The translations under genes were made by a program, and so were the position numbers. A DNA stretch of 64,000 bases. It comes from Bacteroidota bacterium (GTDB taxonomy: Bacteria > Bacteroidota > Bacteroidia > B-17B0 > Aurantibacillaceae). The notes beneath the pieces were generated by a model, which did no database searches, was not told the DNA's origin, and saw nothing but the letters and a program-made list of their open reading frames with translations. Location of the stretch: positions 62,001 through 126,000 of the forward strand of contig JANYGK010000053.1 of the NCBI GenBank assembly GCA_025362395.1. The letters run 5' to 3'. This document shows positions 33,606-38,885 of the stretch, piece after piece; the stretch's first letter is position 1; every line of letters begins with the position of its first letter.

Positions 33606-34469
33606 GTGGAAAAAATTCTAATAACCGGGGCTACGGGTAATGTAGGAGCAGAAATAATTAAATACCTAGCTATTTTAAATCCAACTTTTGACATACTTGC
33701 AGGTGTAAAAAATCCAAATGAAAAAAAGCCGATTTCTTCCATTGTTAAATTTGTAGAATTCGACTTTATGAATGTTAACACTTTTAAGCCGGCATTGATA
33801 CATATTGATATATTATTTTTACTGCGACCGCCTCAAATTTCGGATGTACACAAGTATTTTGAGCCATTAATTAATGCTGCAAAAGCTAATGGAATTAAAC
33901 ACCTTGTTTTTTTATCTGTTCAGGGTGTTGAAAAAAGTAAAATAATCCCTCATCATAAGATTGAAAAATTGATCATTGACAGCAAAATTCCTTACACCTT
34001 TTTACGGCCTGCTTATTTTATGCAAAATTTTATCGGGTCATTAAATAATGATCTGATAAACAAACACCGGATTTATCTTCCCGCAGGAAATGCAAAATTT
34101 ACACTAGTGGATGTAGCTGATGTAGGCGCTGTTGCAGCTACGGTTTTATTAAATACGGAAGCGCATTTAAACAAAGCTTACGAGTTAACAAATAATGAAA
34201 AACTTAGTTTCAGCGAAATGGCATTAAAACTAAGTGCCGGTCTTGGTAAAAATATCACTTATAAATCACCCAATCTTTTACGTTTCTTTTTTGTTAAGAG
34301 AAAAGAAAAGATTCCTGCAATGCTCATTTTAGTAATGATCATGCTTCACTACCTCCCAAGGTTTCAACAGGAGCCCATTATTACCAATTGGATTAAAAAG
34401 ATCACCGGTAAGGCGCCTGTTTCATTTAATGAATTTATTGCCAAAAATAAATTATTACTTGGCGCTTGA
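33606..34469 (+). CDS. NmrA-like NAD(P)-binding protein
   Basis: 287 residues from a GTG at 33606. The GTG is supported because the Rossmann motif follows at once (MEKILITGATGNVGAEII). NmrA/HSCARG-like atypical SDR: dinucleotide loop GATGNVG, VKFVEFDFMN, HLVFLSVQGVEKSKIIPHHKIEKL, FLRPAYFMQNF, and a C-terminal helical part. These proteins sense or use NAD(P)H, often as quinone oxidoreductases or redox-responsive regulators. The 3' end overlaps the convergent TetR gene by 15 bases. Confidence 0.87.
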   Translation: MEKILITGATGNVGAEIIKYLAILNPTFDILAGVKNPNEKKPISSIVKFVEFDFMNVNTFKPALIHIDILFLLRPPQISDVHKYFEPLINAAKANGIKHLVFLSVQGVEKSKIIPHHKIEKLIIDSKIPYTFLRPAYFMQNFIGSLNNDLINKHRIYLPAGNAKFTLVDVADVGAVAATVLLNTEAHLNKAYELTNNEKLSFSEMALKLSAGLGKNITYKSPNLLRFFFVKRKEKIPAMLILVMIMLHYLPRFQQEPIITNWIKKITGKAPVSFNEFIAKNKLLLGA

Positions 34470-35132
34470 GCTAAATAATAAAGACTCCAAAAACAAAATA
34501 ATTTTTTTATCATCTTCCTCTTTAGGGAAATCCGTTAAAGCGGGTAAGTTCTGTTTAAAAAATTTCTGAGAATGCGCCATCTCTAAAATAGTACTTGCCA
34601 GGGAATGCGGAAATTTGTATTTCGGATTGTATTCTTTTATGATGGATGAAAAACGTTCGCACAAATCTTTATAAGGTTTAAATAAACGGTCTTTATTATC
34701 TTTACTAACATTTCGGGTAAGGTAGGACTTAGATCCTTCCCAAATAACCAATTTGTAGCTTTCAAACTCAGAAATAAAATCCGTTTTAACAGATTCATTC
34801 ATAGGTTCTTCAGTAATTATTTTAATAATGGTTTTTAGCTTGGTTTCAGAATTTGTCATATTGTTAATGCTGAATACCACCTTATATTCCAAAAAGCTCC
34901 AATACCAAGTTATTAGGTAGACAAGCAACTTATGTTTATTTTCAAAATAACGGTAGATGCTTGCCTCGGTAGTGTTAACTTCAGTAGCCAATTTTTTAAA
35001 AGTAAAATCTTCAAAGCCCAGCTTGTTAATTAAAGCCAGTCCATGTTTAACAATCCTTTTTCCTAAAGCTGATTCTTCGGGATTCCTTAAAAACAACTTA
35101 TCATTCATTTTAATACGTACTTCCGGCAGCAT
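34455..35132 (-). CDS. TetR/AcrR-family transcriptional regulator
   Basis: 225 residues. The N-terminal helix-turn-helix reads GKRIVKHGLALINKLGFEDFTFKKLATEVN, then TTEASIYRYFENKHKLLVYL, a standard TetR pattern; the rest is an all-helical ligand-binding part. It is divergent from the TMD-HlyD/TolC export genes, and a 31-bp perfect palindrome lies between them, so autoregulation and repression of the exporter are likely. An in-frame ATG at 35108 is an alternative start; 35132 sits 17-24 bases after a perfect -7 box. Confidence 0.92.
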   Translation of the reverse strand: MLPEVRIKMNDKLFLRNPEESALGKRIVKHGLALINKLGFEDFTFKKLATEVNTTEASIYRYFENKHKLLVYLITWYWSFLEYKVVFSINNMTNSETKLKTIIKIITEEPMNESVKTDFISEFESYKLVIWEGSKSYLTRNVSKDNKDRLFKPYKDLCERFSSIIKEYNPKYKFPHSLASTILEMAHSQKFFKQNLPALTDFPKEEDDKKIILFLESLLFSSSAK

Positions 35133-35155: not shown

Positions 35156-35229
35156 CAAATATAATAAATATTAAATTTATGTAATAAATAATAGTATTAC
35201 TATTATTTATTAAAATATTACTACATTTG
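35156..35229. promoter_or_regulatory. Divergent promoters around a 31-bp palindromic TetR operator
   Basis: The palindrome spans 35182-35212: 15-base arms TAATAAATAATAGTA and TACTATTATTTATTA around a central T at 35197, with no mismatch. On its right is TACATTTG (35222-35229), a perfect -7 box for the plus-strand exporter gene. On its left, read on the minus strand, is TATATTTG (35156-35163), a perfect -7 box for tetR. The palindrome sits over both -33 positions, so a bound TetR protein could block both promoters. Confidence 0.65.
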
Positions 35230-35242
35230 TGAAAATATTATT

Positions 35243-37486
35243 ATGAATAAGCCTCAATTACTTTTTAAGTGGTTATTGAAAGAAAAATCTATAGTTGCTA
35301 AAATTTATGTTTTAGCCATTTTGGAAGGTCTGATGTACCTTGCCATACCTTTGGGTATTCAAGGTATAGTTACTTACATTATGGCGGGAAGCTTCTCCGC
35401 TTCTCTTATTTTGCTAAGCAGCATCACAATTTGTGTAACGGCATTTATTGGCTTTTTTCAGCTATGGCAAATGCGAATTAATGAAACATTGCACCAAAAG
35501 ATTTTCGGTGACTTGGCGATGAAAATTAATTTTTTTTTGGAAAGAAACGAATCGTCAACTGCATCCTTCACGAAACTTAATAAGTTTTTTGAAGTGGTAA
35601 CGTTGCAAAAAGGTATCAGTAAAATTTTATTAGATTTTTCTTTCTCTGTTATAAGTATTGTTTTTGGTTTGCTGCTATTACCAATATACAGTTCCTGGTT
35701 TCTCATTTTTACCATTTTGTTAGGCGCGGCTTTTTATTTTATTATCCGATATTATGGTAAAAAAGGAATTGAAACAAATATTCTGGCATCCAATGAAAAA
35801 TATAATTTGATTGAATGGTTCCAAGAGAATGCCCTTGAAAAACAAAACATCGGTTTAAATGCCGGAACAGAACTAACCTTGCAAAATTATTTTATTCAAA
35901 GAACAAAACATTATAGCATCTTAGAGAAACAATTTAAGGGCATTATACTGTTTAAAGTAAGTTTTATAGGGTTGCTTTTGTTTTTTGGCGCCTATTTAGT
36001 GCAAAGCGGCGCTTTAAATGTAGGGCAATTTATCGCTTCAGAAATCATTATTTTTTTAGTGATCAATGCTGTTGAAAAGCTTGTAGGCAGCCTTAATACA
36101 TGTTACGATATTATTACCGCTCTTTACAAGATAGAAAACGTTTTTGGTGAGGATAAAGAATTTTCTTCTTTAGATTTTGAGAATACCGGTCTGAAAAGTT
36201 TAGCGATTATTTATGTAAAACCCTATTCTAAAGCTATAAAATATTCTTTAGCAGCGCTTTTTATCACGGGGTTTATAGCGCTTTTAATGCCCTGGACACA
36301 AAGCATTTCATCAAACGGTAAAGTAAGCACTTTAAACCCTGAAAACAGACCACAAACCATTACTTCCAGAATTCCGGGAAGGATTGAAAAATGGTACATT
36401 CGGGAAGGTGATCCGGTAAAAAAAAATGATACGATCGCTTTTATATCAGAAATTAAAGATGAGTATGTAGATCCTCAATTAATCGATCGTTCGGAGTCTA
36501 TCATTAAAGCCAAAGAAACAACCATAAAATCTTATGAAGCTAAAATCAGTGCTGTTGATTCTCAAATTGACGCTTTAAATAAATCCCTGCTTTTAAAGAT
36601 GGAACAGGGTCGTAATAAAATCATTCAGGCTAAATTAAAAATAGCAACAGATAGTATGGAAGCCATCACATCAACCAATAATTTTAAGGTGGCTGAAGAG
36701 CAATTGAAGCGTTACGAAGAATTATTAAGTAAAGGGGTGATTTCTAAAACAGAGCTTGAAAACAGAAGGGTTAAATTGCAGGATGCATTGGCAAAAAAAA
36801 CATCAGCAGACAACAAATTTATTTCCACTAAAAATGAATTACTAAATTCGGAAATAGAACTAAACTCCATTCAGCAGGATTACCAAGAGAAGTTAATGAA
36901 AACGGAATCTGATAAATTCTCTGCCCTTTCTCTTTTATATGAAGGCGAGGGATCATTAACAAAACTTCAGAACCAACTGGCAAACTATACTATGCGTCAA
37001 GGTTTTTATTATGTATTGGCGCCGCAGGACGGATACATTACCAAAACAACTGTTCAGGGCATTGGCGAAATTATTAAGGAAGGCGCGGCTTTATGCAATA
37101 TTGTGCCAAACCAAGATGAGCAAGCGGTTGAATTATATATTAACCCTATTGATTTGCCACTTATTAAAAAAGGACAAAAAGTACAATTACAGTTTGACGG
37201 TTGGCCTGCATTTGTTTTTTCGGGTTGGCCCGGAATAAGCTATGGCACCTACACGGCGGAAATTGTTGCTTACGATAAAGTGCTCTCTGAAAATGGAAAA
37301 TTTAGAATACTGGCAAAAAACACCGGTGATAAGTGGCCGGACGCTATACAAATTGGCGGGGGTGTTAAGGGATTTGCACTGCTGAAAAATGTACCGTTAT
37401 TTTATGAATTATGGCGCACAATAAATGGATTTCCGCCGGAGTTTTATGTTACAGATGTTTCTAAAAAGAATGAAAATAAAAAATAG
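35243..37486 (+). CDS. ABC-exporter permease domain fused to an HlyD-type adaptor, without ATPase
   Basis: 747 residues. Residues 1-300 match the six-helix transmembrane domain of a type I ABC exporter (IYVLAILEGLMYLAIPLGIQ, NEKYNLIEWFQENALEKQ, IASEIIIFLVINAVEKLVGS). Residues about 315-747 are an HlyD-type adaptor: membrane segment near 333-352 (FIALLMPWTQSI), lipoyl half (NRPQTITSRIPGRIEKWYI, REGDPVKKNDTIAFISEIKD), long coiled coil (about 390-570) and beta-barrel end (PLIKKGQKVQLQFDGWPAFV). No Walker A, ABC signature or Walker B is present. From memory, in other Bacteroidota these are two adjacent genes and the first has an ATPase domain; here that domain is missing and the remains are joined in frame near residue 305-315. 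TolC follows by one base. Confidence 0.85.
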   Translation: MNKPQLLFKWLLKEKSIVAKIYVLAILEGLMYLAIPLGIQGIVTYIMAGSFSASLILLSSITICVTAFIGFFQLWQMRINETLHQKIFGDLAMKINFFLERNESSTASFTKLNKFFEVVTLQKGISKILLDFSFSVISIVFGLLLLPIYSSWFLIFTILLGAAFYFIIRYYGKKGIETNILASNEKYNLIEWFQENALEKQNIGLNAGTELTLQNYFIQRTKHYSILEKQFKGIILFKVSFIGLLLFFGAYLVQSGALNVGQFIASEIIIFLVINAVEKLVGSLNTCYDIITALYKIENVFGEDKEFSSLDFENTGLKSLAIIYVKPYSKAIKYSLAALFITGFIALLMPWTQSISSNGKVSTLNPENRPQTITSRIPGRIEKWYIREGDPVKKNDTIAFISEIKDEYVDPQLIDRSESIIKAKETTIKSYEAKISAVDSQIDALNKSLLLKMEQGRNKIIQAKLKIATDSMEAITSTNNFKVAEEQLKRYEELLSKGVISKTELENRRVKLQDALAKKTSADNKFISTKNELLNSEIELNSIQQDYQEKLMKTESDKFSALSLLYEGEGSLTKLQNQLANYTMRQGFYYVLAPQDGYITKTTVQGIGEIIKEGAALCNIVPNQDEQAVELYINPIDLPLIKKGQKVQLQFDGWPAFVFSGWPGISYGTYTAEIVAYDKVLSENGKFRILAKNTGDKWPDAIQIGGGVKGFALLKNVPLFYELWRTINGFPPEFYVTDVSKKNENKK

Positions 37487-37487
37487 T

Positions 37488-38885
37488 ATGAAAAAGCTAT
37501 TGTTATCTACTATATTTTTAAGCTCAATAATATGTTTTGGGCAAACTGCTTTGTTGCCTTCATACAATGATTTTATAGACGGAATATTAAAGAATAACCC
37601 TTTAGTTAAACGCGCGGCTAACGAAAAAAAATATGCGGAGCTACAGTTAAGGGCTTCGAGAGGTAATTACGATCCTCTAATAAGTGGTACCTACAATCAA
37701 AAACAATTTAACGGCGCAAATTATTTTACAACTTTAAACACCGAAATAAAACAACCCATATTTACGAATCAATATCTGAAGTTTGGATATGACTATGGCG
37801 TAGGATCCAATGTAAATCCCGAACTCTATACTCCATCACAGGGCTTGCCATATTTAGGCGTGGAAATAGGTGTTTTACAAGGATTGTTGATCGATAAACG
37901 AAGGGCTGAGGTTTTAAAATCTAAGGCATACATCCATTACTATACTGCCGAACAAAAAATACAACTCAATACTTTTTTATTTGAATCGTCGCAACGTTAT
38001 TTTGAATGGTTATTCAGTGCGAACCAAATAGCACTTAATAATTATTTTATGGGTGCGGCAAGGAAAAGATTGGAAGGTATTGAAGCCTTGGCAAATAATG
38101 GAGAGAGAGCAACCATTGATACGGTTGAAGCGGCTATATTTTATCAAACACGTTTATTAGATTTACAAAACGCTTTGATGGACAATCAAAAAAATACGAA
38201 TGATCTTTCGGGGCTTATTTGGCAGAACAACGCCCCATCAGCATTAGTAAATAATTACCGGGCAATTGATAGTCTGGAGATATACTATAACAAAGCTAAA
38301 ACCGTGCTAACCGAAAATTTGAATTTAGCAAATTCCCAAAATCCCATTCTTTCTAAATACAGTGCTTACCAAAAAGTTTTGGACACAGAAGTTAGATTTA
38401 AAAAAGAAATGATTAAACCCATTCTTAACGTAAAATATAATTTTATTTCTAACAGTGGTTCGGCTATTAATCCTGTTCTTTCCAATAATAATTATAAATG
38501 GGGCTTAAACATGTCATTTCCGTTGTTATTGAGAAATCCAATTAACGAGTATAAAATGGCAAAGGTTATTTCTGAAAATAATAGTTTAGAACTATTAAAT
38601 AAAACCAATGAATTAAATTTTAAGATAAATGCCTTACAAAAAACAGTTTCTATTTTAGCGCAACAGCTCTTAAACGCAGAACGATCTGTAAGTTATAGCA
38701 AGTTATTACTGGAAGCAGAAAAATTAAAATTTGAAAATGGAGAAAGTTCTGTATTCATGATTAATACCCGCGAAAATAAATTACTGGAAACCGAATTAAA
38801 GTTGGCAGAATACAAACTTAAATTTATAAAAATGGTTCTTAATATTATTTATTTAAACGGCAGTTTAAATTATAAAATAGGATAG
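37488..38885 (+). CDS. TolC-family outer-membrane efflux protein
   Basis: 465 residues from the ATG at 37488, one base after the preceding stop and directly before the signal peptide (MKKLLLSTIFLSSIICFGQ). The longer frame from 37425 is rejected because it would bury the signal. TolC traits: two related helical halves, NPLVKRAANEKKYAELQLRA, LDLQNALMDNQKN, KLKFENGESSVFMINTRENK and long coiled-coil helices. It should form the outer-membrane channel for the upstream HlyD-like adaptor, so the two make an envelope-spanning export unit under TetR control. Confidence 0.9.
   Translation: MKKLLLSTIFLSSIICFGQTALLPSYNDFIDGILKNNPLVKRAANEKKYAELQLRASRGNYDPLISGTYNQKQFNGANYFTTLNTEIKQPIFTNQYLKFGYDYGVGSNVNPELYTPSQGLPYLGVEIGVLQGLLIDKRRAEVLKSKAYIHYYTAEQKIQLNTFLFESSQRYFEWLFSANQIALNNYFMGAARKRLEGIEALANNGERATIDTVEAAIFYQTRLLDLQNALMDNQKNTNDLSGLIWQNNAPSALVNNYRAIDSLEIYYNKAKTVLTENLNLANSQNPILSKYSAYQKVLDTEVRFKKEMIKPILNVKYNFISNSGSAINPVLSNNNYKWGLNMSFPLLLRNPINEYKMAKVISENNSLELLNKTNELNFKINALQKTVSILAQQLLNAERSVSYSKLLLEAEKLKFENGESSVFMINTRENKLLETELKLAEYKLKFIKMVLNIIYLNGSLNYKIG

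Follow-up and report, generated by a model that had tools for sequence, protein, structure and literature searches.

ABC transporters are the textbook primary pumps, and the coupling helices of type IV exporters, which contact the ATPase domains (NBDs), lie in the loops joining transmembrane helices TM2 and TM3 and helices TM4 and TM5. EmrAB-TolC is an established proton-driven tripartite exporter. As inner-membrane partners a review names ABC, RND, and MFS proteins (PMC8277102), and the Aat system, a composite type I secretion system (T1SS), consists of a LolC/E-like permease with a separate ATPase (PMC7943197). The reported instance of a secondary transporter derived from an ABC-fold membrane domain is the SbmA group: SbmA has lost the NBD and coupling helices, carries a glutamate ladder, is proton-driven, and originated from an NBD-bearing ABC relative (PMC13316013). 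YddA and BclA are NBD-bearing ABC relatives of SbmA, and an NBD-less secondary transporter is reported to derive from a YddA-like protein (PMC13316013); intermediates are sparse. A partial literature search returned no report of an NBD-less permease-adaptor fusion or of a degenerate T1SS in Bacteroidetes.

The window analysed here, a stretch of 64,000 nucleotides from the draft genome of a Bacteroidota bacterium (118 contigs, 4.08 Mb), contains a gene in which an ABC-exporter membrane domain (TMD) is joined to an HlyD-type adaptor. The gene and its parts are given below with the basis for each assignment.

35243-37486, + strand: fusion gene encoding 747 residues, in which an ABC-exporter membrane domain without NBD precedes an HlyD-type adaptor (open reading frame and full-length homologues)
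35243-36142, + strand: six-helix type IV ABC-exporter membrane domain, residues 1-300 (AF2 model, VIA alignment)
36143-36229, + strand: cytoplasmic join at the expected place of the NBD, residues 301-329 (similarity to unfused TMDs stops near 300; HlyD similarity from about 319)
36230-36286, + strand: seventh membrane helix, the HlyD anchor, residues 330-348 (helix in the whole-protein model)
36287-37483, + strand: periplasmic adaptor with a long hairpin (helices 411-496 and 502-583), residues 349-747 (Pfam, Foldseek, model)

The AF2 model of the membrane domain, built from 112 related membrane domains, has a pLDDT of 88.3 and a pTM of 0.79. It aligns with TmrB and HlyB in VIA over 301–303 residues at 2.6–2.9 Å (TmrB, Z 26.4, 301 residues, 2.6 Å; HlyB, Z 25.5), and the closest solved relatives by sequence profile are PCAT1 and ComA. 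In the whole-protein model six long helices extend up to residue 300, followed by helix 330–348 and then the adaptor, a topology that fits because TM6 finishes in the cytoplasm, where the N terminus of HlyD would begin. The adaptor half has the anchor helix, barrel-sandwich/lipoyl domain, and long hairpin of HlyD-type proteins. Its Pfam matches are HlyD_3 at 591–653 (PF13437, E 1.3e-10), HlyD_D23, and a lipoyl-like segment at 371–401, with PF13437 and PF16576 above the cut-off, and Foldseek matches it to EmrA (4tko, E 8.8e-16), to HlyD (5c21, E 4e-9), and to MacA. The score of PF00664 (ABC_membrane) on residues 21–184 is 21.7 bits, under the Pfam cut-off of 28, so that annotation overlooks the membrane domain. 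Neither Walker A, signature, nor Walker B is found in the 747 residues, and the Pfam search gives no PF00005 match. In relatives the sixth helix leads into an NBD of some 225–230 residues; this domain is absent here, and the model leaves no space for it between the end of TM6 at residue 300 and the anchor helix at 330–348. The initial annotation, which had described a six-helix ABC-exporter domain in residues 1–300, an HlyD adaptor from about residue 315, a missing ATPase domain, and an in-frame join at nt 36155–36190, is thus borne out on each point: the adaptor similarity, of HlyD/EmrA/MacA type, begins near residue 319, the join lies inside approximately 36143–36229, and the structure prediction that it proposed returned both the membrane fold and the adaptor.

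The fusion gene lies in a regulated operon with the following further elements.

34455-35132, - strand: TetR-family regulator, transcribed divergently from the fusion (PF00440, E 1.4e-8)
35187-35207, no strand: palindromic operator AATAATAGTATTACTATTATT (aligned upstream regions of fused genes)
35191-35203, no strand: operator core ATAGTAnTACTAT, common to many fused and unfused loci
37488-38885, + strand: TolC-family outer-membrane channel with likely start at 37488 (PF02321, E 3e-25)

The operator and the TolC gene are both intact, as had been proposed, and the likely start of TolC is one base past the fusion stop codon. In almost every fused gene examined the core of the palindrome aligns in the upstream region, and the extended operator AATAGTANTACTATTA has a single location in the 4.08-Mb genome (control, 0). 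A TetR of the same family is present in 20 of 24 fused loci, and TolC is immediately downstream in 12 of 24 and usual in operons of both kinds. Relatives in which permease and adaptor are separate genes (unfused) likewise have a similar TetR upstream of the operon, and many of their loci contain the operator core, often upstream of TetR (for example L074 and L079). The common operator and TetR indicate that fused and unfused genes most likely constitute one regulated system. A gene for a CutA1-like protein (approximately 100–105 residues; PF03091, E 2e-7 to 0.03) is in or near the operon in about half of the fused loci and several unfused loci (L099:9990-10307, L101:9778-10089, L104:7655-7984, L079:5511-5825, L088:6392-6715), and downstream of TolC or the fusion in L090, L092, L052, and L059; none is beside the fusion gene of the window. 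At 33606–34469 the window encodes an NmrA-like NAD-binding protein; its gene converges on that of TetR, and the ends of the two genes overlap.

The search for further fusions suggested in the initial annotation found the same join at full length in dozens of genomes. Of 87 genomes from the same family, 36 have a match at E<=1e-150, in two cases cut by a contig end; the full-length fusion also extends to five other families of the class and is found in 15 GTDB contigs. A single clade unites the 39 non-redundant fusions (SH-aLRT 100 for the HlyD part and 99 for the TMD part), which is most simply explained by one fusion event. For three pairs with unsaturated dS, dN/dS is 0.044–0.062 in the membrane half and 0.024–0.073 in the adaptor half, values which indicate that the fusion gene is under strong purifying selection. 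Because the window derives from a draft of many contigs, an assembly collapse, a sequencing error, or a young pseudogene might be suspected as the source of the fusion. Recurrence of the same join in many genomes, however, argues against both chance and misassembly: it is found at 50–87% identity to the window protein (alignment of 37) and in one case on a contig of 5,648,308 bases. Together with dN/dS near 0.05 and the conserved operator, these homologues rule out a collapsed assembly or pseudogene, which deserves practically no credence. The same observations, a single conserved clade at low dN/dS with an operator conserved across genomes, uphold the proposal that the export unit is in use.

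At the more permissive threshold of E<=1e-60, 193 of the 395 genomes sampled from the class Bacteroidia have matches, nearly all in a two-gene layout in which a membrane domain with NBD, mostly of 545–745 residues, is followed by an HlyD of about 450. Seventy-four unfused NBDs were aligned with canonical exporters of the window genome. An LSGGQ-type signature is present in none of the 74. The GxxGxGK[S/T] Walker A is kept in 54 and its Lys in 64, Asp-Glu at Walker B in three (most read LLLLED or LLLLEN), the Q-loop Gln in five, and the His at the switch position in five; an intact Walker A combined with both Q-loop Gln and switch His is found in 0/74. In canonical exporters from the same genomes or from related ones, S-x-G-Q, Asp-Glu, and the switch His are retained almost throughout, the signature of C39 control exporters reading ISTGQ or LSAGQ by eye. 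About a dozen unfused NBDs are without a recognizable Walker A, five of them from the window's own family (L078, L079, L086, L087, L088), and in L165 most of Walker A is deleted and no ABC_tran match remains. The alignment thus indicates that motor loss is not peculiar to the window genome, the absent ATPase of the fusion being the extreme of a family-wide decay, and the degenerate NBDs of the separate-gene relatives suggest that ATP hydrolysis was probably already dispensable. Nevertheless, retention of the Walker A Lys in most unfused NBDs suggests a continuing role for nucleotide binding in that branch, and the 54 complete Walker A motifs count against transport without ATP hydrolysis. The order of NBD-motif decay relative to fusion has a low support of 48, with long branches, in a TMD tree rooted with canonical exporters. 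Several unfused proteins (L078, L079, L081, L085-L088, L163) have about 150 additional N-terminal residues, possibly a degenerate C39-like domain. Among the HlyD matches, two contain two internal TGA codons (G181:C9:70840-72117 and G322:C6:77489-78766; maybe intergenic read-through or pseudogenes) and two contain one internal TAA (G314:C124:8001-9368 and G057:C3:317384-318721), where the match probably extends into the preceding gene.

The regions in which an exporter would contact its NBDs were compared between the fused and unfused groups.

35510-35593, + strand: former coupling loop 1 (TM2-TM3), residues 90-117 (pairwise identity 0.32 fused versus 0.57 unfused)
35810-35887, + strand: former coupling loop 2 (TM4-TM5), residues 190-215 (pairwise identity 0.23 fused versus 0.40 unfused)

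The best-conserved loop positions of the unfused relatives are, in window numbering, R98, P100, P109, E110, N113, and R114 in loop 1 and W192, E195, A197, and R198 in loop 2, which reads 'WLEEIAR' in these proteins; the same positions vary almost freely in the fused clade. The modelled loops of the fusion have 4 residues between TM2 and TM3 and 6 between TM4 and TM5. At a core identity of 0.55, loop identity is 0.195 for 182 fused pairs versus 0.520 for 1034 unfused pairs, the pairs being non-independent and the gap large. On average 2.2 of ten key loop residues are kept in fused proteins, 9.5 in unfused proteins with Walker A, and 8.6 in NBD-bearing proteins without Walker A. Since this last group retains its loops, loop decay tracks the physical loss of the NBD and not the loss of catalysis. 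The 511-residue relative with the deleted Walker A (L165:3790-5325) also has decayed docking loops, with 4/10 key residues, and is possibly a second, independent motor loss in progress.

The rest of the membrane domain is conserved. Fifteen core residues are kept at an average of 14.8/15 in fused and 15.0/15 in unfused proteins, and core pairwise identity within the fused clade is 0.65–0.67. The following charged residues are part of this conservation.

35483-35485, + strand: E81, at the cytoplasmic end of TM2 (39/39 fused, 74/74 unfused; canonical exporters have M/L/I or A/V)
36041-36043, + strand: E267, within the TM6 hydrophobic stretch by hydropathy (38/38 fused, 74/74 unfused)
36074-36079, + strand: E278-K279 pair in the TM6 hydrophobic stretch (E in 38/38 fused and 72/74 unfused, K in 38/38 and 74/74)

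The position of E267 is S/Q/N/T in C39 exporters and I/F/L/V in other exporters. In a profile comparison with the PDB it is Asn in ComA and PCAT1, and ComA has Glu at the position of E278. K123 and K186 are invariant in fused and unfused proteins and absent from canonical exporters, where the alternatives include N/S/W and S/L, respectively; the position of E228 is acidic in 97% of fused versus 1% of unfused proteins. Being invariant or nearly so and family-specific, E81, E267, and E278 are candidate counterparts of the SbmA glutamate ladder. Proton-coupled transport would require family-specific charged residues in the membrane, and these may fill that role here, although the placement of E81 near the cytoplasmic edge and not mid-membrane counts against its protonation having this function.

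The initial annotation raised the possibility that the fusion is powered by another ATPase. An ABC ATPase encoded elsewhere could dock in trans, like the separate NBD subunits of importers, and the genome has 46 ABC_tran matches, several of them in open reading frames of about 220–330 residues without a fused membrane domain. The docking loops, however, have lost conservation in the NBD-less clade only, which is a strong argument against docking in trans. No ABC ATPase forms a conserved neighbour cluster in the 24 fused loci compared, and no ABC ATPase gene recurs beside the unfused operons in 16 unfused loci. The proposed search for an orphan ATPase found nothing close to the sister NBD beyond canonical exporters: the nearest NBD in the genome is only 32% identical to it and belongs to a canonical exporter of 551 residues. 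The NBDs of the sister group are, moreover, themselves degenerate, and an ATPase in trans is accordingly improbable. An ordinary ATP-driven exporter with a degenerate site, in which a paralogous half-transporter supplies the NBD as in the heterodimer TmrAB, would agree with the finding that one half of a heterodimeric exporter often has a degenerate NBD (PMC7756269, PMC8277102). Yet no second half-transporter with an intact signature is in the same operon in the 16 unfused loci, no half-transporter recurs beside the fused genes, and such a partner is very improbable.

The chief rival is that the membrane half does not transport and is instead a passive pore or a dimerization or anchoring scaffold, the substrate entering from the periplasm or via another pump. 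Many adaptors are membrane-anchored, proton drive of the fusion is a proposal, and motor loss is a plausible first step of decay towards a scaffold. Such a scaffold would not be expected to keep a core as constrained as that of the unfused proteins, with nearly all fifteen invariant residues retained and core identity maintained across the fused clade, and has no need for invariant E267, E278-K279, and K123 in or near the membrane. This explanation is therefore considered unlikely, and among the options named in the initial annotation (another ATPase, or a passive or proton-driven scaffold) proton drive appears the most likely.

The likeness to SbmA/BacA (SLiPT) consists in a type IV ABC-fold membrane domain without NBD, lost coupling loops, and conserved acidic membrane residues. 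SbmA, however, is an importer with extra TM0 helices, lacks an adaptor or TolC, and belongs to a separate sequence family. The model of the fusion shows no TM0 helices flanking the membrane domain, only an elbow helix (residues 3–13) preceding TM1. Membership in the SbmA group was rejected, as the SbmA_BacA Pfam family gives no match up to E 0.1; SbmA is absent among the best 50 matches listed for the membrane domain by Foldseek and VIA, which carries no weight for or against kinship. The YddA-like origin of an NBD-less transporter parallels the unfused sisters, but BclA requires ATP hydrolysis (PMC12003926), whereas the sisters have degenerate NBDs. With HlyB/HlyD/TolC the locus shares the membrane fold, adaptor, channel, and the order permease-adaptor-TolC; it differs in lacking the NBD, in combining permease and adaptor in one chain, in TetR control, and in having no recognized secreted-protein gene adjacent. 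The ABC ATPase that energizes a T1SS is neither in the fusion nor recurrent beside it, and the conserved NBD-coupling loops of ABC exporters are lacking in the fused clade. In PCAT1 and ComA (C39) both the peptidase and a functional NBD are retained. EmrA is the closest structural match to the adaptor half, but EmrB is an MFS protein of another fold. The Aat system was rejected as a match owing to its LolC/E-like permease and separate ATPase. The genes place inner-membrane part, adaptor, and TolC in one operon, as in a tripartite exporter. The fusion would thus resemble SbmA in its working and a tripartite exporter in its build, and appears to lack the defining features of SbmA, of an ABC exporter, and of a T1SS alike.

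It is considered moderately probable that the fusion is a dedicated tripartite exporter with permease and adaptor in one chain, in which transport proceeds without ATP hydrolysis by protonation-driven alternating access; we infer this mode of transport, and likewise the energy source and substrate. One in-frame deletion would have joined two neighbouring genes once, removing the NBD and about the first 18 HlyD residues, and the permease:adaptor ratio would consequently be fixed at 1:1. Two copies of the N-terminal half would come together, on the analogy of ABC exporters, around a cavity of the ABC-exporter type. From a cytoplasmic C terminus of the membrane domain the chain would recross the membrane once, and the HlyD hairpin would reach the TolC of the adjacent gene. 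Two or more copies would most likely assemble as in HlyB/HlyD, whose complex (8dck) has six HlyB chains, and the substrate would pass through the adaptor to TolC. As reported for SbmA, alternating access could result from protonation at E81, E267, E278, and perhaps E228 (fused proteins only), although SbmA imports whereas the fusion would export, which counts against an SbmA-like reading. TetR with a single site, the association of TetR-TolC operons with efflux, and the lack of a recognized cargo gene nearby suggest a toxic small molecule or peptide, and not a large protein, as the probable substrate.

Should proton drive prove true, the fusion may represent a new pump class. It is plausible, and proposed here tentatively, that a further tripartite class exists beside ABC, RND, and MFS, in which an ATPase-less permease has turned into a proton-driven secondary exporter joined to its adaptor, with the unfused relatives as stages on a route independent of SbmA. 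Because the permease half falls under the Pfam cut-off, a conserved exporter of this kind is easily labelled as HlyD only. One regulated operon family, present in about half of the sampled Bacteroidia, ranges from degenerate motors through those without Walker A to the motorless fusion, and it opens to testing both the path from an ATP-driven to an ATP-independent pump and whether an ABC membrane fold can export via TolC on a proton gradient.
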